Source: a virus
Reading direction: 5' to 3' (one strand)
IMG/VR virus record: IMGVR_UViG_3300022918_000004
Coordinates: 1 to 47,094 of that record
DNA: 47,094 nucleotides
Shown here piece by piece: positions 28,853 to 44,181 of the stretch (position 1 is its first letter; each line of letters starts with the position of its first letter). The position numbers and the translations under genes are program-made. A model generated the notes under the pieces. It was given only the letters and a program-made list of their open reading frames with translations. It ran no database searches and was not told where the DNA came from.

Positions 28853-29034
28853 ACAGACCCCTCGTTCTGACGAATGCACCATTGATTGGCCTTTAGCCGT
28901 GCCTCACGTTCCTTCACCCGAAGGTTGGACCACTTGGTTTCAATACTACGTACTCTCCAGAAACCAAAACCCGAGATATACCGGTGCCAGTAAATGTGGG
29001 GCTTATTCTGGGGACGAATTCCCTTAGCTTTCAT
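28849..29034 (-). CDS. Small basic protein (61 aa)
   Basis: This 61-residue product is rich in Arg, Lys and Trp (GFGFWRVRSIETKWSNLRVKEREARLKANQW). ATGA overlaps on both sides place it between the glycosylase and the small membrane protein. It may bind nucleic acid, judging by charge only. Confidence 0.6.
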   Translation of the reverse strand: MKAKGIRPQNKPHIYWHRYISGFGFWRVRSIETKWSNLRVKEREARLKANQWCIRQNEGSV

Positions 29035-29420
29035 GACCGTTCCTCGATACGTGCCCGGTTCAGTGCCAGTGCTTCAGGTGTGGGTGTGTAATCGTTCCAC
29101 CAATGGTCGTCCTGGATCGAATCATGAGCACACTCGACGATCTCCAGGACGATACGCATATCGATACCAGAATCCCGTCCACGCTTAAACGCCCGGTAAC
29201 GCATCTCGAGCGCCAGGCTGATATAGCGACGGGCAATGTAGCCCAGTTTATCGTAGAAGAAAATTACGTGACCCGCGCCGAGGCAGTAGGCTATTGGTAG
29301 CTTACGGGGGGTAGCTTGGAATTTGCGTACCAGCTCGAAGACGCGGGAGATTTCGTGGTACTCACCAGCAAGGTGCTGGTCAGACAGTTCCTGCTCAGGA
29401 ACTACGTTGATACGGGTCAT
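29031..29420 (-). CDS. denV: Pyrimidine dimer DNA glycosylase (DenV type)
   Basis: The start MTRINVVPEQELSDQHLAGE matches T4 endonuclease V closely. Thr2 (the nucleophile after Met removal) and Glu23 (HE, catalytic) are both in place, and RVFELVRK follows. At 129 residues it is close to the T4 length of 138. The enzyme cuts the glycosyl bond and backbone at UV-made pyrimidine dimers, protecting phage DNA. GAGGA precedes the start, and a promoter candidate lies just upstream. Confidence 0.92.
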   Translation of the reverse strand: MTRINVVPEQELSDQHLAGEYHEISRVFELVRKFQATPRKLPIAYCLGAGHVIFFYDKLGYIARRYISLALEMRYRAFKRGRDSGIDMRIVLEIVECAHDSIQDDHWWNDYTPTPEALALNRARIEERS

Positions 29421-36201: not shown

Positions 36202-38712
36202 TTACGCCGCGAGCGGTTCATAGTTCTCGTCCAGTTCTATCGGTGCTGGCAGTTCTGAGGCATCGTATTCCCTCCCGTTGCCCCAGTTCCCGATGGTCAC
36301 ATCAGCTACCAGAGGTAACGGCAATTCTATACCAAAATCTCTCATGATCTGCGGACTTTCCATAATCGCTTTAATGCGTGCCGCACACTCCAGCGCAACG
36401 TCTTCGCGTATCAAACCAACCATAGCATCGTGGATAGTACCCTGGACTTTTACCAGGTGATTGTTGAAGTACTTATTTACCTCGATGGTTGCCATTAATA
36501 CCAGCTCAGCGCCAAAACCCTGGATCGGTGCGTTGATGGCGTTCCGTTCTGCTTCAGATGCCAAGCCACGGTCTGGGCTGTTAATCTGGGGCAGGTGGCG
36601 AATACGGCCGGTCAGTGTGCGGACCATGCCCATCGCTCGAACGATTCGGCGTTGACGGTCGTGCCACTTCTCGAGTCCGGAGTAGATCTCGAAGAAACGT
36701 TTACGAATTTTCTTGGCCTCAGCTTCAGTAACCACAAGTCCGAACTTCGACGCGGCATATTCAAGAAACAGTTTCCAGCCCATACCGTAGATGAACCCGA
36801 AGTTGATCGCCTTGGCTTTTTTCCGTTCTTCCTTAAGCTGGGCTTTGCGTTTGCCCGGATCCTCGATGTGCGCGACCGCTTCTTCTGTGGATAGACCGAA
36901 CGTCCGTTGGTAAGTTGATTCGTGAATATCACCGCCACTTCGGAATACTGCCAACATCGTTGGCTCATTCGCAGCCGCTGCTGCAAGTCGCAGTTCTACC
37001 TGGCTCTGGTCGATCTCGAAGAACACGTAACCGGCGGGGGCACCGATAAGAGACCGTATAAAAGGATCTCGGGGGACTTGCTGCAAATTCGGACCCGCAC
37101 ACGCAGGACGACCAGTCACCGTACCGTGGACCTTATAGCCCGGGTAGATGTAGCCATCGATCATGCGTTTGTTCCAGCCGTCAATGAAGCTGGAGATCTG
37201 TTTGAATGCGCCCCGGTACTCCAGCAAGACCTCAATGATCTCATGCTGGCTTTTCATCTTGATCAGGTTATCTTCAGCGGTGGATGGTGCGCCGCCGTCC
37301 GTTAAACCCATCGCTGTAAGACCGAGCCAATCAAAGAGAACCCGGTTGACGAATGCCCCTGAGTTCCAGTTGATCTCTACGACGTTGTTGTCCTCGTCGT
37401 AGACCATGTCGTTTGCGGCTTTGCGCCACGGATTAATGAATCGATCCAGCTTGCGACGAAGGCGACGGATCTTGCCCCGGAGGATTTTTTCCGCTTCGGC
37501 CATACGCTCCTGGTCGATGTGGATTCCGTTAATCTCCACAACTTCGTAGGTACGTGCTATCGGCATTACGAGTTCATGGAATAGGCGGTTGAGATCTTCG
37601 TCACGCTCCAGGCGATCTTTGAACACTCGCCACAGTCCCACGGTTGCGTAACCGTCCCAGGCGGCGTACTCGGTTCGCTGGACTTCCTCTTCGGGAGTTA
37701 AACCTTTACCCTCTTTGCCCAGGCCATTTTTAACGTGAAGCGGGACATCCCAGTCTTCCATCTCGAGTTCGGTGCGGGCGTTCTGCTTCAGGTCGTTCGG
37801 ACTGTTCTCGTCCAGGAGGTGTGAGGCCAACATGATATCGAAGTTCAAGGGGAACCGAACGCCGAACATGTAGTGCAACCAGAGATTGTCGAACTTGCCG
37901 TTCTGAGCCAGGATTGCCTTAGTACCCTTCGACATAGCCTCGTTCGCTTTCTCGTGCCAACGGCGCAAAGTAGCGTAGGAGAAGCTGTCATGTTCGATCA
38001 CGAACTGCTTGGTCAGTGTGGCGATTACCGTTTGCCCGATCCGGGACGTCTTAAGGCGCGGCTGTAGCCCGTTCGTTTCGAGGTCGTATGCGACGACGCG
38101 GGAACGACGTATCGCGCTGAGGACTTCCTCGAGGCCCGCCCGGGAACGGATCGACTTAGCGTTGAGAGTATGCTTGCGTAGTTCCTCCCCGTTCGCCAGC
38201 TTGCCGAACCGTCTGAAGTCTGTGTGGATTCGATCCCAAAAGCGCGGGTCACGCAGGGACATTGCTGGGTGAAAAGTTGGGAGAAGCTTGAAGCCCATTT
38301 TATGTTCGTGCGTCTTGCCGTGAAGTTCAGTGATCTTGGCTTTATTGGTTAAGGCCTTGAGAGCGGTTGCCCCCAGGGTGATAACCATCTCGGGCTTGAT
38401 CTCTTCCAGCTCGGCCAGCAAATATTCCTTGCAGGCTTTTAACTGAGTAGCCGAGACTTTGCCATTATCGCCCTTACGGCATTTAACGGCTGGGGTGTAG
38501 TAAACCTCGTCACGGTCGATACCAGCGGCCACCAGGAGATCGCTGAAGAGCTTGTCCGGGTTCCCGTGCCCGTACTCGCCCTTATCGTCCTCGGAATAGT
38601 TCGGGTTATCACCAACAACAACGATGCGGGCCGACTTAGGACCCACACCTTGGATGCATGTGTTGTTGGCGTAACGACTTAGTTCGCACTTGTCACAGGC
38701 TTTACAGGACAT
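36202..38712 (-). CDS. Uracil-DNA glycosylase fused to DNA polymerase I
   Basis: An N-terminal uracil-DNA glycosylase domain of the Fe-S family (C3/C6/C9 region, GDNP at 34-37, KCR with C78, C94, TFHPA at 147-150) is followed by a 3'-5' exonuclease (D210-x-E212, NGKFDN, YAAWD) and a family A polymerase: motif A DQSQVELR, motif B KAINFGFIYG, motif C H761-D762-A763. The usual HDE in motif C is HDA here. The fusion could prevent or correct uracil at the fork. It overlaps the dCMP deaminase gene. Confidence 0.9.
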   Translation of the reverse strand: MSCKACDKCELSRYANNTCIQGVGPKSARIVVVGDNPNYSEDDKGEYGHGNPDKLFSDLLVAAGIDRDEVYYTPAVKCRKGDNGKVSATQLKACKEYLLAELEEIKPEMVITLGATALKALTNKAKITELHGKTHEHKMGFKLLPTFHPAMSLRDPRFWDRIHTDFRRFGKLANGEELRKHTLNAKSIRSRAGLEEVLSAIRRSRVVAYDLETNGLQPRLKTSRIGQTVIATLTKQFVIEHDSFSYATLRRWHEKANEAMSKGTKAILAQNGKFDNLWLHYMFGVRFPLNFDIMLASHLLDENSPNDLKQNARTELEMEDWDVPLHVKNGLGKEGKGLTPEEEVQRTEYAAWDGYATVGLWRVFKDRLERDEDLNRLFHELVMPIARTYEVVEINGIHIDQERMAEAEKILRGKIRRLRRKLDRFINPWRKAANDMVYDEDNNVVEINWNSGAFVNRVLFDWLGLTAMGLTDGGAPSTAEDNLIKMKSQHEIIEVLLEYRGAFKQISSFIDGWNKRMIDGYIYPGYKVHGTVTGRPACAGPNLQQVPRDPFIRSLIGAPAGYVFFEIDQSQVELRLAAAAANEPTMLAVFRSGGDIHESTYQRTFGLSTEEAVAHIEDPGKRKAQLKEERKKAKAINFGFIYGMGWKLFLEYAASKFGLVVTEAEAKKIRKRFFEIYSGLEKWHDRQRRIVRAMGMVRTLTGRIRHLPQINSPDRGLASEAERNAINAPIQGFGAELVLMATIEVNKYFNNHLVKVQGTIHDAMVGLIREDVALECAARIKAIMESPQIMRDFGIELPLPLVADVTIGNWGNGREYDASELPAPIELDENYEPLAA

Positions 38713-39107
38713 TGTATAACCTCAATACCGTGGCTCTCGAGATATTCTATACCGTCTCGGATTCGGTAAGCCCGGTCATAAACGACTCGGGAGATTCCAG
38801 CAAGGTGAATCAGCATTGCACAGGCTTTACAGGGTGAATCGGTGACGTACATCGTGCATCCCTGCGGTAGTAAGTCATCCCACACTGGGTCATTCTGCTT
38901 TGCCCAGTGGATGGCGTTGGCTTCGGCGTGAAGAGTCTTCGTGCAGGGGTTGGCCATTGTGCACTCCGGCCCGCAATGCGCAGCCCCGGGCGGCGTGCCA
39001 TTATACCCCATGCTTATCGGTCTCGAGTCGACGGCAATAACCGCCCCTACCTTCAAACGGTTGCAGGTCCCACGCTTCGCAGCCGTGTGGGCCATTTCGA
39101 TAAACAT
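38679..39107 (-). CDS. dCMP deaminase
   Basis: The 142-residue enzyme has the zinc site HAEAN (H60, catalytic E62) and SPCKAC (C93, C96), and the T4-type region GYNGTPPGAAHCGPEC. The start ATG lies just after the stop of the third thymidylate-synthase-like gene. The enzyme makes dUMP from dCMP and is normally regulated by dCTP/dTTP. Here it may feed or relieve a pathway that changes cytosine nucleotides. Confidence 0.9.
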   Translation of the reverse strand: MFIEMAHTAAKRGTCNRLKVGAVIAVDSRPISMGYNGTPPGAAHCGPECTMANPCTKTLHAEANAIHWAKQNDPVWDDLLPQGCTMYVTDSPCKACAMLIHLAGISRVVYDRAYRIRDGIEYLESHGIEVIQCPVKPVTSAN

Positions 39108-39108
39108 C

Positions 39109-39654
39109 TCATCCCGCGTTAACCTTTCTTGGTTTGCGCTTGATGCCGTAGATGTCGAGGAGCTTGGCGTAGAGCTTTTCATTTGAGTTGCCTCGAAGCG
39201 CGAATGAATGGCAGGACCCGCACATAACGACAATGCGCTTGACATCAAGGTTGAGGGTTCCGATAACTTCAAGAAGGATCGCTTGATCGTAGACGAGGCC
39301 ACCAAAGAGTTCCAGACTTCGATAGTGAAGGGTGAGTGTTCTTCCACGAGTGGTATAACTGGCGCCGAGCAGGCAAAAATCGCCTCGCTCCCCGAAGTTA
39401 CCCGATCCGGTCTTCTCCACTCCGAAACGGATAGAAAAGTCTTTGCCGTTATCGGAGCGGCTGCTAGCTCTGGCAAGGTCGGCATAGTCGACATAGGACG
39501 CAATGCGCTTGGCGGCCCGTTTCGGATTAACCAGGACTCTCTGGGCAAGATCTGGATTCCATCCAAATGAGAAAACGTGGTGAGGGAAACGCCGTGAAAC
39601 ATAGCCTCCAACCATGTCTGTGTGAACTTCTCGAATGCTTTCATAGTGGTTCAC
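39109..39654 (-). CDS. Thymidylate-synthase-fold protein 3 (181 aa)
   Basis: By-eye alignment to thymidylate synthase: Cys94 (GDFCLLG) takes the catalytic position, then after a two-residue shorter hairpin Arg112-Ser113 takes the phosphate motif. Glu115 is at the D169 position, Asp123 at the Asn177 position and His149 (SCHSF) at the H207 position. It is shorter than the usual 260 residues, with a reduced N-terminus. It overlaps the second member by four bases. An inactive partner subunit is also possible. Confidence 0.5.
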   Translation of the reverse strand: MNHYESIREVHTDMVGGYVSRRFPHHVFSFGWNPDLAQRVLVNPKRAAKRIASYVDYADLARASSRSDNGKDFSIRFGVEKTGSGNFGERGDFCLLGASYTTRGRTLTLHYRSLELFGGLVYDQAILLEVIGTLNLDVKRIVVMCGSCHSFALRGNSNEKLYAKLLDIYGIKRKPRKVNAG

Positions 39655-40484
39655 TCGTCGTCACCGTAAAGTTGACGGTAGTCGTTGATGAACATGTGCA
39701 AAGACGTGATGTGCATGGTGAACTTACCGGGCACTACGTTATTCCACACTTGGGGGTTCAACTTGCGGCATTCGTCCAGGACCCACAGGAGCAGCCGCAC
39801 GGTCAGGTAAACGTCGTCACGGAAATGGTTGGCCAGGTCGCAAGAGCGCAAGTAATAGGTCACGTCCAACTTGCCGTTACGCATGATGAAGTGATACCCG
39901 AGTGTGCAGGGCTTGCGGCCCTTATGCGCGTCACCCGTATCCTCTGGGAACCATACCGGCAGATATGCTTGCCGGGTATCCGGTTCGCCCGCCAGATCGC
40001 GCACCAGGCCCCCGAGGTCGCCGTATTCGTGCCGGATGCCCATCACCGGAACGTATCCCCGAGTCATTTCGGCTTTCCAGTCATCGGCATTCTGTGTGGG
40101 GGTGTTGGAGGACTCTCCCGCGAATAGGGGCCAGTAGCGTTCCATGTAGTTGTGGTTGAACATGCCCTTCGAGTCGAGCGATTTCTCGGCGTTGACGCCG
40201 TGCGACCAGTTGGCCCACTCGATGCCGGGGTTGATCGGATACCCGCATACGCGCTCGAGGAAATGGTTGTCAGCCCACGGCAGGTTCGGGGCGATTGCCA
40301 GTGCGTAAAAGTTCAACGCTTCTCCAGCCATGTCGAATTGCATAGAGACGTGCAGGTCTTCCTTCATCAGGGCGGCAGGCTGCTTAGTTACGTCCTGGCC
40401 CTGCCAGCGGGTTGGACGTACCACTTCAGAACCCCACTCGAAGTTCTCGAAAACATCTCTGATTGCTTTAGATACGCCAGTCAT
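39651..40484 (-). CDS. Thymidylate-synthase-fold protein 2, likely dCMP-modifying (277 aa)
   Basis: This is the clearest member. RQAYLPVW (R171) matches the SRR-W region, PC with Cys193 is the catalytic site, and 20 residues later YLRSCD holds Arg213-Ser214 and Asp216, exactly as in thymidylate synthase. Asp224 stands at the Asn177 position, and LHMFIND (His263) matches the H-x-Y region. Asp at this site is the mark of dCMP hydroxymethylase and dCMP methylase. Start by ATGA overlap. Confidence 0.7.
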   Translation of the reverse strand: MTGVSKAIRDVFENFEWGSEVVRPTRWQGQDVTKQPAALMKEDLHVSMQFDMAGEALNFYALAIAPNLPWADNHFLERVCGYPINPGIEWANWSHGVNAEKSLDSKGMFNHNYMERYWPLFAGESSNTPTQNADDWKAEMTRGYVPVMGIRHEYGDLGGLVRDLAGEPDTRQAYLPVWFPEDTGDAHKGRKPCTLGYHFIMRNGKLDVTYYLRSCDLANHFRDDVYLTVRLLLWVLDECRKLNPQVWNNVVPGKFTMHITSLHMFINDYRQLYGDDE

Positions 40485-41269
40485 TTGTTGGTCCTCGATA
40501 AACGCTTGAGCGTGCGGAGTTGCTGGGGCGTCAGGTTCGGCCTGACGTTCTTGTCGAAGTTGACCCACTGCTTAGCTTGGGTCTGCCAGTTGTAGGGGTT
40601 CGTGTCCTGCAGCCAGCGCCCGAGAGCCTGGCTTACCGTTCTATCATACCAGTGTGGATCGTGCTCCTGCACGGCCTTAACGATCTCTACCGGATCCCGT
40701 ACCTGGAACAGGATAGGCAAGAACATGGACGACATGTAGAGTGTGCAGAACCGGAAACGGATGAGGTCGGGCTTTACTGGAATGCCCTCGAGGACAATCG
40801 GTAAAATGCGTTCCTGCAGATATTTAAGATCAGCCAGGAATTTCTGTCCAGTTTCGGTAGACCGGTAGTAAACCTCAATGACGAATTTAGGAGTACCCTC
40901 CGTGGGCTTACGGAGGAAGTTGAGAGATAGGGTCTGCATACAGAAACCCATTGATTCTTTTTTCTTCTCCTGATTACCAAAGCGAGCGGTAAGACACGTT
41001 TGTTCTTTTGAGATCCTGCCGATAAATTTAACGCGTAGTTTTTCGAACTCTTCAACGTTGAGATAGTTACGATCAAGCTGCCCGAACTTCGAGACCCACG
41101 ACGCATACGCGACTGTAGTCGCCGGAAGATCAATTCCTGTTTGAAACACTTCATAGGGGACTTCCCACACTTCGCCGTTGAACATTTTACGAATCTGGAC
41201 ATACGCCGCTGGCGGCGTAGTGCACAGTTTCACCAGGAAATCAGACCAGGCTTGAACGAGCGCAGTCAT
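40481..41269 (-). CDS. Thymidylate-synthase-fold protein 1 (262 aa)
   Basis: Cys110 (MGFCMQTLSLNF) aligns with the catalytic Cys. A hairpin six residues longer leads to VYYRSTE with Arg136-Ser137, Glu139 at the D169 position and Asp147 at the Asn177 position. The H207 region reads RFCTLYMS and lacks the His. The rest is too divergent for simple recognition. It lies between the MazG-like gene and member 2 with four-base overlaps on both sides. Confidence 0.5.
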   Translation of the reverse strand: MTALVQAWSDFLVKLCTTPPAAYVQIRKMFNGEVWEVPYEVFQTGIDLPATTVAYASWVSKFGQLDRNYLNVEEFEKLRVKFIGRISKEQTCLTARFGNQEKKKESMGFCMQTLSLNFLRKPTEGTPKFVIEVYYRSTETGQKFLADLKYLQERILPIVLEGIPVKPDLIRFRFCTLYMSSMFLPILFQVRDPVEIVKAVQEHDPHWYDRTVSQALGRWLQDTNPYNWQTQAKQWVNFDKNVRPNLTPQQLRTLKRLSRTNK

Positions 41270-41673
41270 TCGCCACGGTCCATATGCTCTTCGAGCAATT
41301 GACGAATGCGATCTTCTGGACCAACCCAGCCTTCGGGCTTAATGGCATCCTCGGCAAGCTGAGCACGGGAGGGCTTTGGTGCCCCCAGGCGCTTGGACAT
41401 GTTGCACTGATGAACCGCTTCGAAGATACGGTCGTAGAGGTCTGGCGTGATGCCGTGCTTGTACAGGATGCCGCGACGAAAATAGTCGAGATCTGCCAGG
41501 GCATCGATTACCCCTACCAGGTCACCAGCGTCGTAGGCATCCGACATTTCCTTGATCTCTTCGCGCAATGCGTCGAGGCTGAATGACATCTCGGACGGGT
41601 CCATCAAGCCAAGCGGGCGCGGTTCGATTCCGATAATCACTTGATTGAAAGCTTTAACCATGGCGTTTTTCAT
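41266..41673 (-). CDS. MazG-like nucleotide pyrophosphohydrolase
   Basis: The 135-residue helical protein has EEIKEMSDAYDAGDL and then GVIDALADLDYFRRG, the ExxE and ExxD/DxxD pairs of the all-alpha NTP pyrophosphohydrolases (MazG, dUTPase and dCTPase-like). Such enzymes split (d)NTPs into (d)NMP and pyrophosphate. Next to dCMP-type enzymes it could remove normal dCTP, as T4 gp56 does; the substrate is not shown. Confidence 0.75.
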   Translation of the reverse strand: MKNAMVKAFNQVIIGIEPRPLGLMDPSEMSFSLDALREEIKEMSDAYDAGDLVGVIDALADLDYFRRGILYKHGITPDLYDRIFEAVHQCNMSKRLGAPKPSRAQLAEDAIKPEGWVGPEDRIRQLLEEHMDRGE

Positions 41674-41683
41674 TCCGGGATCC

Positions 41684-42226
41684 TTACGCGAGGAACGTGG
41701 CAGACCAGTTGGCTTGGTCGAATTGTTTGAGGTGTTCTTGGCAGCGCTGCAAGAGCGAGGGCATCTCGATCTTGTTCTGCCAGTCGTATTGAATAACGGT
41801 GCACTTCGAGAACCGGATCACGTCCAGCATAAAGTCATCGTAGCGGTGTACCAGCTGGGCATGATTGTCTACCACACCATCCATTTGTTCGCGTCCGTTG
41901 TTCGCCAGGATCGTTTTCAGCCGGGGACGGCAGTAGATGATCAAGTACGGGCGCTGGTACAAGTCCAGGATCGCCTGACGGGCTTTATCGCCCAGGGCGT
42001 TGTTACCCCGGCAGATCGGGCCGTAAACGGGCTCGCTGATAGCGTAGATGCGATCCAGGATAGCCCGCTGGGGGCGAAGCTGGCGCGAGGAGTGCTCCAG
42101 GCACTCGATAGGCGTCCATTCCGGGTTCGGGCGTTCGCTATGCCGGGACGGTACTTTCAAAGCCTCACTGAGCTGGCGCGCCAGTGTGGATTTACCGGAG
42201 TTGTCCGGCCCTTCAAGAATGATCAT
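41684..42226 (-). CDS. Deoxynucleoside monophosphate kinase
   Basis: The 180-residue protein opens with a P-loop (GPDNSGKST, 6-14) and has LDRIYAISEPVYGP in the middle, like the DRxxxS motif of thymidylate kinases, plus PYLIIYCRP. It should phosphorylate a dNMP. In T4 the similar gp1 works on hm-dCMP as well as dTMP and dGMP. The position directly before the MazG-like and thymidylate-synthase-like genes fits that kind of role. Confidence 0.8.
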   Translation of the reverse strand: MIILEGPDNSGKSTLARQLSEALKVPSRHSERPNPEWTPIECLEHSSRQLRPQRAILDRIYAISEPVYGPICRGNNALGDKARQAILDLYQRPYLIIYCRPRLKTILANNGREQMDGVVDNHAQLVHRYDDFMLDVIRFSKCTVIQYDWQNKIEMPSLLQRCQEHLKQFDQANWSATFLA

Positions 42227-44181
42227 CAGTTAGTCCTCAAATAAACCTTCCCGGAATCCCGGTAGCAGGTATTCTTGCTTATCATGGAGTCCAAGGATTC
42301 TCGGACTTGTTTGGCGTTGTAACCGGTGTTCTGAATTATATAGGATTCCGACACCCCTTTACGACTCGATATTACTCCAACGATATCGTCCATCATCTGC
42401 TCTGGGCTACCCTTCTTAACGCCTCCTCGTCCGGGCTTAGCTTCTTCTTCCTCGTGGAAATAGTCCTCGACCTCGACTTCATACGTCGGGTCACCCATGT
42501 CACCCATCTTCACGCGGATGTCCAAACGGTTATGCAAGCCAGCGCCACGAAACTCGCGCTCCATAACGATCTCAGCTTCATCGCCATCGGACGGCATGGA
42601 CTTCAGGTACCAGGCTGATTCGATCCAACCGTGGAGTGTGGTAGATCCCAGCATCCGCTGACCACCGCGCTTTGACTCGCCGCCTTTGTTCCAGTGGTGA
42701 ATCAACGTGATCCCACACTTGTACTCGTTCTTCAGGTACAGCAGCCATTGCAGGATCGGGAACAATTCCTGAGCACTGGCAATATCGCCGTCGAACATCA
42801 GGTAAAGCGGGTCAAGCACGATATGGATAGGCTTCAGTTCTTGGATGGTTTCTTCGAGCCAGTCTTGCTGGTCGGGGTCAGTCAAGGTGAAACCCTGCTG
42901 GTTGACCATGTACAGTGGAACTTCTGGTTGAAATTTAACCCGCAGGTTAGAGCCGCTGATGTTCGAGACTTTACCGATGAGACCTTTGTTCATCAGCATC
43001 TTTTCGAAACGGTCCTTCATGATCCACTCGGCGTTCTCGTTCTGCACATAGAGTACGGTGCCGGTTTCATCGACCGGGTACTTGCCCAGGAACGGCGCGC
43101 CCGTCGCAATGGAAATCATCGCATCCATAAACAGTGTGGTCTTCATCGACTTCGGTTCACCGGCCACGATGCCGTGGGATTGTTTCATCCAGAAACCCGG
43201 AATCAGCCAGCCTGGTGTTGTTACCAGACTCGACATAACTTCCTGGAATGTCTGGAGCTTGAAATCACCTGGCTGAGTCTGTGCCTTATTGCGCCGGGGT
43301 GGGTCAGCGGTAATCTGCTTCTCGATGATTTTCATCATCTCGACGCGCAGTTGTTCGTCACCGTCCTTACGTCCTTTGAACTTATTCCAATCCGACTCAC
43401 GGATAACGGTGATGACTTCTTCCGGGGACATGCCTGCCTCGGAAAGCTTATTCTCGAGATACCACAGCATCTCAGAACGCTTGCCCTGCTCGGCCTCTCC
43501 GTGAAGCAACGTCAGAAGTTTAGCTGGCAACCGGTAGTTCTTCAGGATCGCGTTAGCGTCACCCCAATCCTTTTCCTCGTACTGAGCTGGATCGACTACC
43601 GCATGATTAACTTTCTTGGCGACGATCTTATGGTCGAGCTTATTCTCGTCCCAATGCAGCAGTTTAACCTCGGGCTTGTAGTCGTATTTGTGGTTGAACG
43701 TGCCGGGGATACGCAGAACCTGGCTTAAGTCCCAGCCGCCTTTGTCAGCGCCTAAGTGGTAAGTCATGCTCTTATTAAGGGCCGCTGCATCTTCGGCGTG
43801 AAGCTTATCTTTCAGGAACCACAATGCGTGGTGGCGCCCCGGGCTGGATTCCCAGAGAACGGTTGGACGCAGTTTCTTAACGTCGCCATCGTCGATATCC
43901 GACCACAGCATGTTGACCGGCTTGACATACTTGGCTTTCCGCTGGGGCGAATCGAATGGTAGAGGACACCAATAAACGTCCATCTCTTTCGGGTTGTGTT
44001 GCCGAAGCCAGTCCCGCAAACGTGGCTTCATATCCTTGCTGAAAGGAAACGAGTAGTCGTCCCATCCCTTCTTCTTGTCTTCGCCTTTCTTGCGTGTGCA
44101 AAGGAATACGTGATCGCCTTCTACACAGACCTCAGACCAGGCCTTAACGAGAAAGTCAACTGGACTATTTGGTAGGGCCAC
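42226..44181 (-). CDS. AEP primase-helicase fusion
   Basis: The start is GTG with GGAGG 7 bases upstream. Residues 1-200 look like an archaeo-eukaryotic primase: SDIDDGD (D95, D97) and SSPGRHH (112-118), with WDLSQVLRIPGTFNHK after. A RecA/RepA-type helicase follows with Walker A GEPKSMKTT (341-349) and IHIVLDPLYLM as Walker B. A C-terminal winged-helix-like part ends the 651 residues. It would prime and unwind at the origin. It is the second gene of the leftward operon. Confidence 0.85.
   Translation of the reverse strand: MALPNSPVDFLVKAWSEVCVEGDHVFLCTRKKGEDKKKGWDDYSFPFSKDMKPRLRDWLRQHNPKEMDVYWCPLPFDSPQRKAKYVKPVNMLWSDIDDGDVKKLRPTVLWESSPGRHHALWFLKDKLHAEDAAALNKSMTYHLGADKGGWDLSQVLRIPGTFNHKYDYKPEVKLLHWDENKLDHKIVAKKVNHAVVDPAQYEEKDWGDANAILKNYRLPAKLLTLLHGEAEQGKRSEMLWYLENKLSEAGMSPEEVITVIRESDWNKFKGRKDGDEQLRVEMMKIIEKQITADPPRRNKAQTQPGDFKLQTFQEVMSSLVTTPGWLIPGFWMKQSHGIVAGEPKSMKTTLFMDAMISIATGAPFLGKYPVDETGTVLYVQNENAEWIMKDRFEKMLMNKGLIGKVSNISGSNLRVKFQPEVPLYMVNQQGFTLTDPDQQDWLEETIQELKPIHIVLDPLYLMFDGDIASAQELFPILQWLLYLKNEYKCGITLIHHWNKGGESKRGGQRMLGSTTLHGWIESAWYLKSMPSDGDEAEIVMEREFRGAGLHNRLDIRVKMGDMGDPTYEVEVEDYFHEEEEAKPGRGGVKKGSPEQMMDDIVGVISSRKGVSESYIIQNTGYNAKQVRESLDSMISKNTCYRDSGKVYLRTN

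Follow-up and report, generated by a model that had tools for sequence, protein, structure and literature searches.

Two adjacent phage genes, here termed g1 (40481-41269) and g2 (39651-40484), encode proteins of the thymidylate synthase (TS) fold and form a widespread phage pair that probably makes a modified cytosine for phage DNA. Together with a third TS-fold gene, g3 (39109-39654), they lie on the minus strand of a 47,094-base virus record (the window), which shares ~77% identity with Pseudomonas phage PMBT14 and 76% with phage Almagne over the region. Instead of g1, some g2 loci carry a homologue of cytosine C5-methyltransferases, and this exchange of partners bears directly on the chemistry proposed below.

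Operon organization and fold of the products

The operon is headed by a primase/helicase-like gene (42226..44181; RepB_primase and AAA_25 domains), followed by genes for a thymidylate-kinase-like dNMP kinase (41684..42226; phrog_761, 1.9e-25) and a MazG/PRA-PH-like nucleotide pyrophosphohydrolase (41266..41673; PF01503, 2e-9; phrog_671), the latter belonging to a neighbour cluster present in 58 loci. Downstream of g1 (262 aa), g2 (277 aa) and g3 (181 aa, GTG start) are the genes for a dCMP deaminase (38679..39109, ATG start at about 39107; PF00383, 6.5e-22; phrog_174, 1.8e-50) and a family A DNA polymerase with an N-terminal uracil-DNA-glycosylase domain and a 3'-5' exonuclease (36202..38712; polymerase found in 70 loci), then those for a PD-(D/E)XK nuclease and Sak4. 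The operon genes with coordinates in this paragraph are all on the minus strand. Stop and start codons overlap by 4 nt at the MazG/g1 (ATGA), g1/g2 (ATGA) and g2/g3 (GTGA) junctions, which makes translational coupling of these genes, including all three TS-fold genes, probable.

The uracil-DNA-glycosylase domain of the polymerase has a Cys-rich start. If the genome is C-modified, this domain could excise deaminated (modified) cytosines during synthesis. Elsewhere in the window, the minus strand encodes a pyrimidine-dimer DNA glycosylase of the T4 endonuclease V type (29031-29420; PF03013).

The preliminary description of this DNA assigned the TS fold to all three products, with open reading frame positions and residue numbers that proved correct throughout, and the fold holds for each of them. 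A profile search bore this out for g2, which matched the Pfam TS family PF00303 (E = 4.7e-6) and phrog_160 (9e-30). Among solved structures, the g2 profile ranked L. casei TS N229D at the top and the dCMP hydroxylase AfhB among the best, with the CMP hydroxymethylase MilA and T4 dCMP hydroxymethylase (1b49) lower; it scored the RB69 homologue at 36.4 bits and T4 gp42 at 25.8 bits. The same approach failed for g1 and g3: neither had a Pfam match, and because a PDB sequence search with their profiles returned nothing related, structure prediction was needed.

AlphaFold models were obtained for g1 (pLDDT 95.3, alignment of 50 homologues) and g3 (pLDDT 87.4, alignment of 10 homologues). The top 50 Foldseek matches of each model belonged to the TS superfamily only, with E values of about 1e-4 for g1 and about 1e-5 for g3. 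According to VIA-align, AfhB (PDB 9iqu, 9iqc) was the best match of both models, with Z 13.2 over 177 residues for g1 and Z 11.6 over 163 residues for g3. Structural TM-scores were modest (mostly 0.4-0.57 by query length), as would be expected of diverged members of the superfamily. Profile comparison related g3 to g1 (hhalign probability 94, E 1.8e-7) and actinobacteriophage g1 to proteobacterial g1. g2 is distant from both g1 and g3, with weak sequence alignments (E 0.04, E 0.04 and E 9e-4). A scan of genome contigs with g3 found no cellular homologue. The unannotated RB69ORF047c (182 aa), which adjoins RB69ORF048c, did not hold up as a g3 homologue.

A conserved gene pair and its alternative partner

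The g1-seeded scans returned 48 contigs, nearly all containing g2. After duplicates were collapsed, these scans and the best 80 of 432 relatives from a g2-seeded scan yielded 102 unique g2 loci, 91 with g1, 9 with a Dcm-like gene and 2 undecided. g1 lay mostly directly upstream of g2. With contigs fetched twice still counted, 136 of 152 loci had g1, 10 had the Dcm-like gene and none had both. g3 is confined to a minority of lineages; it occurs alongside g2 and, on contigs of sufficient length, g1 as well. Three tandem paralogs had been regarded as an unusual local feature; instead, g1-g2 is a conserved pair to which g3 is an occasional extra. The pair was found in phages PMBT14, Almagne, Lebethron, Serbin, Yersinia P744 and Brevundimonas Strzyga, as well as in Muddy, NoShow, Orla, Yakult, KimJongPhill and Huwbert. 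ThyX is carried by 8 loci, and in Huwbert a separate ThyA with Asn177 directly follows g2.

Several loci vary this arrangement. One has an additional g1 paralog downstream of its g1-g2 pair (L024:10575-11318), which represents another route to three TS-fold genes. In Gordonia phage Yakult (gp45-gp44, L012:8342-9501), the g3 homologue is separated from g1-g2 and immediately follows a short C5-methylase-like gene. In PMBT14 g3 is unannotated (L001:14080-15039), a dCMP deaminase call overrunning it in another frame, and in Almagne it is annotated as a shortened hypothetical protein (L005:3501-4049). Emalyn-type Gordonia phages have a gene annotated as lysin B between g2 and the dCMP deaminase gene, the slot occupied by g3 in the window (L019:6765-7616, L012:4701-5555, L016:5136-5894).

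The rule that g2 always requires g1 failed in 10 of the 76 testable loci. All ten, lacking g1 despite sufficient upstream sequence, carry upstream of g2 a homologue of C5-cytosine DNA methylases (PF00145), the Dcm-like gene. A reciprocal scan from the Dcm-like protein gave 43 loci, with g2 in 38/43 and g1 in 0/43. The g1 loci lack an asparagine-synthetase-like ligase with a glutaminase domain, which 45 of the 53 Dcm loci encode. In the g2 phylogeny, sequences of the Dcm type occupy two separate clades, so the g1/Dcm-like swap happened at least twice. The window itself lacks a Dcm-like gene, and no isolated phage with one was found in the phage collection searched.

The Dcm-like protein has PECG in place of PPCQ (30/41 sequences), usually MDDLP in place of the ENV-type motif VI, and Gly-Lys in motif X (23 of 24 readable sequences). 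The Lys site corresponds to Asn304 in M.HhaI, to Arg350 in CmoX of the carboxymethylcytosine system CmoX/CmoY (Synechococcus phage S-B43) and to the Lys of M.MpeI N374K, an engineered enzyme that this Lys lets accept Cx-SAM (PMC12783734). The Dcm-like protein resembles the CmoX/CmoY system in being a C5-methyltransferase homologue and in the adjoining gene for an asparagine-synthetase-like amide ligase. It differs in having PECG rather than SPPC and Lys rather than Arg350, and in its linkage to a TS-superfamily protein, g2, which is absent from the CmoX paper (PMC12783734).

The Dcm-like family (L128, L134, L138, L144, L145, L146, L152, L156, L159 and L160-L202) is tightly linked to g2, and its PECG/MDDLP/GK members with the ligase apparently fall outside the published CmoX set (SPPC plus Arg). 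One Dcm-like gene (L146:1943-4105) seems to contain an intein at the catalytic motif (PEC...KN-CGNFS), and another encodes a fusion to an N6/N4 DNA methyltransferase domain (L128:2227-4530); in L138 and L146 this domain is encoded by a gene of its own, which lies just upstream of g2.

Active-site residues

The three products had been described as sharing a Cys, an Arg-Ser motif, Asp or Glu two residues after the Ser and Asp ten residues after it (g1 C110/R136-S137/E139/D147; g2 C193/R213-S214/D216/D224; g3 C94/R112-S113/E115/D123). In deep alignments, C110, R136, E139 and D147 were invariant in 61/61 g1 homologues, C193, R213, S214, D216 and D224 in 69/69 g2 homologues, and C94, R112, E115 and D123 in 14/14 g3 homologues. 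This invariance indicates that the shared residues did not arise by chance and, together with the fold, rules out that g1 and g3 are unrelated proteins. Larger sets gave the catalytic TS Cys, the phosphate-binding TS Arg and the Asp in 93/93 aligned g1 sequences, with E139 in 86/93, and in 148/148 g2 sequences. The Ser is not strict in g1 or g3: in g1 it is Thr in 43, Ser in 17 and Ala in 1 of 61 homologues, and in g3 Ser in 12 and Arg in 2 of 14. Other family invariants are Lys143 in g1 outside actinobacteriophages (61-member set), where the TS His207-type residue is not among the invariants, and Gly118 and Gly119 in g3.

The preliminary description also placed Asp at the Asn177 position of canonical ThyA in all three products, and every aligned g1, g2 and g3 homologue has it. 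In g2, D224 (148/148) thus matches Asp179 of the T4-type enzyme. g2 further resembles ThyA and its Asn177Asp mutants (L. casei N229D) in fold, Cys, Arg, Ser and Asp169, and departs from ThyA at His147 (Thr/Ser), Gly173 (His), Phe176 (Asp/Asn) and Leu143 (Arg). At the position of E. coli Glu58, equivalent to the Glu60 that activates methylene-THF in T4 hydroxymethylase, the aligned g2 residue is mostly Asn67, although the alignment is gapped there and the change to Asn less certain than the others.

Invariants specific to the g2 family are His111 (145/148), Arg190 (148/148), Asp216, His220 and His263. Arg190 corresponds to Leu143 of E. coli TS (Asp145 in T4) and His111 to Val93 (Ser94 in T4). 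The stretch from Ser to Asp aligns with E. coli TS ungapped, with 10 residues in both proteins; therefore, His220 corresponds to Gly173 and Asp/Asn223 to Phe176, two residues reported to contact the PABA ring of folate (PMC6400193). The published hydroxymethylase signature, Asp/Glu at Cys-3 and Ser/Thr at Tyr-2 (PMC6400193), is lacking at both positions in g2, which has Arg190 and His111. The active-site residues of g2 are identical whether its partner is g1 or the Dcm-like protein. Judging by their residues, all three products appear to keep those for holding cytosine nucleotides and not those for the usual folate chemistry; g2 is predicted to bind dCMP, but probably without the usual use of methylene-THF.

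Proposed pathway and alternative explanations

TS-fold enzymes that modify cytosine are already known from phages (T4 gp42, RB69/AfhB, MetaGPA contigs), and Xp12 is another phage with such an enzyme. The AfhB/RB69ORF048c-type dCMP hydroxylase (5-hydroxy-dCMP synthase) has in common with the present proteins the TS fold, a Cys-Thr, Asp at the Asn177 position, an Arg-Arg/Gln dimer motif and a similar C-terminal His-x-Phe-x-x-Asp; it differs in that no paired paralog is described for it in the literature searched. T4 gp42 shares the fold, the Cys, the Arg-Ser, Asp at +2 and +10, and a nucleotide operon with pyrophosphatase, kinase and deaminase functions. However, g2 lacks the Asp145/Ser94 signature of gp42, is altered at the folate PABA-contact positions and is linked to a second enzyme, either g1 or the Dcm-like protein. 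Asp177 is a hallmark of the TS genes found on C-modified phage contigs, and in modified sewage and coastal contigs identified by MetaGPA such genes co-occur with PRA-PH pyrophosphohydrolase, dCMP deaminase and MafB19-like deaminase domains (PMC8670742). There TS is paired with a carbamoyltransferase (PMC8670742), whereas none was seen near the g1-g2 operon. Neither the g1-g2 pair and the g1 and g3 families nor the g1/Dcm-like exchange is described in the literature searched, recent 5-hydroxycytosine work lying outside that search.

On balance, we favor the reading that this operon provides the phage genome with a modified cytosine nucleotide, g2 and then g1 (plus g3 in some phages) acting in series. 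From the observed fold, conservation, operon structure, and association and exclusion of partners, we infer all of its reactions, their order and the identity of the base. The MazG-like enzyme would convert dCTP to dCMP. g2 would recognize dCMP via Asp224, attack C6 with Cys193 and install or activate a C5 substituent, be it hydroxymethyl, hydroxyl or another group, and g1, with its own Cys110/Arg136/Asp147 site, would carry out the following step on the g2-treated cytosine nucleotide; in the minority of phages that have it, g3 may add or tune a step. The TMP-kinase-like enzyme would phosphorylate the modified dCMP, the phage polymerase would incorporate the modified nucleotide into DNA, and the dCMP deaminase would serve as a dUMP source for dTTP. 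In phages without g1, the CmoX-type DNA C5-methyltransferase homologue and the asparagine-synthetase-like ligase would perform the second step on DNA.

The partner exchange informs this reading in two ways. With a cytosine C5 enzyme as the alternative partner, the g2 pathway likely concerns cytosine, and since g1 is replaceable by that enzyme, the task of g1 should be achievable by an enzyme that likewise acts via a Cys-C6 adduct and C5 substitution. Cytosine rather than uracil, the target proposed earlier, is well supported by Asp177, by the separate ThyX or Asn177 ThyA in some relatives and by the Dcm-like partner. A serial model, with g2 acting on dCMP and then either g1 on the nucleotide or the Dcm-like protein plus ligase on DNA, appears simplest. 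The constancy of g2 in phages that lack g1 makes a permanent g1:g2 heterodimer less probable. Two points count against the pathway: if the g2 product fully replaced C, a DNA C5-alkylating partner would meet a substituted C5, which would be unusual, and linkage and exclusion in related phages can stem from module inheritance rather than from pathway order. Tentatively, two TS-fold enzymes may act in series on dCMP, g2 adding a C5 substituent by non-folate chemistry and g1 (plus g3) converting it, with g1 functionally interchangeable with a carboxymethyl-type DNA C5-methyltransferase and an amide ligase.

Among the alternatives, it seems unlikely that the products form a T4-like dCMP hydroxymethylase, a g1:g2 or g1:g2:g3 hetero-oligomer in which g2 uses methylene-THF to form 5-hydroxymethyl-dCMP and whose dimeric active site g1/g3 would complete or control. 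TS enzymes do form dimers whose protomers contribute to each other's active sites, 4-nt overlaps couple the genes, and g2 retains Asp224 and Asp216 and matches 1b49. Against this stand the missing signature residues, the replacement of the folate-contacting residues and apparently of Glu58/Glu60, and the constancy of g2 residues in phages without g1. The T4-type reading suggested in the preliminary description therefore fits g2 poorly, and g1 and g3 are more distant still. The top structural rank of AfhB for g1 and g3, together with the higher g2 profile score of the RB69 homologue, would fit a flavin-type dCMP 5-hydroxylase like RB69/AfhB, with g2 (with g1) giving 5-hydroxy-dC that is later decorated; a carboxymethyl-type partner would also find a natural acceptor in a 5-OH. 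We nevertheless regard this as improbable: where RB69/HY126 enzymes have Glu (Cys-3), Thr (Tyr-2) and Asn (Ser+2), g2 has Arg, His and Asp, which speaks against it if these residues are essential in AfhB, and the surroundings of the window operon showed no arabinosyltransferase-like gene.

A purely stabilizing or regulatory role of g1 and g3 towards g2, as diverged TS paralogs without catalysis of their own, would agree with their lack of Pfam-detectable TS sequence, with the His207-type residue missing from the g1 invariants and with the shortness of g3. It is hard to reconcile with Cys, Arg and Asp invariant across about 93 divergent g1 sequences, with Cys, Arg, Glu and Asp in 14/14 g3 sequences, or with replacement of g1 by a methyltransferase-fold enzyme and not by another scaffold, and we consider it quite improbable. 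Least probable of all is that, as the annotation of relatives has it, duplicated genes simply supply dTMP from dUMP by ordinary thymidylate synthesis. The dCMP deaminase and TMP-kinase-like neighbors do make a classic dTTP module, but g2 has Asp for Asn177 in 148/148 sequences and changed folate-contact residues, and some relatives have ThyX or an Asn177 ThyA next to the pair. Asp177 and these co-occurring enzymes were the grounds for rejecting plain thymidylate synthase.

If the tentative non-folate series, g2 followed by g1 (plus g3), were true, the DNA base would be an undescribed one, and g1 and g3 would represent new enzymatic activities of the TS fold. The replacement of g1 by a CmoX-like methyltransferase, which took place twice independently, provides a direct, testable clue to the chemistry. 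Genes annotated as thymidylate synthase in many phages may belong to an unrecognized cytosine-modification pathway with a near-obligate second enzyme. Among these phages are Gordonia and Pseudomonas phages and the therapeutically used mycobacteriophage Muddy. Genome modification would have consequences for restriction, CRISPR, nanopore reads and phage engineering.
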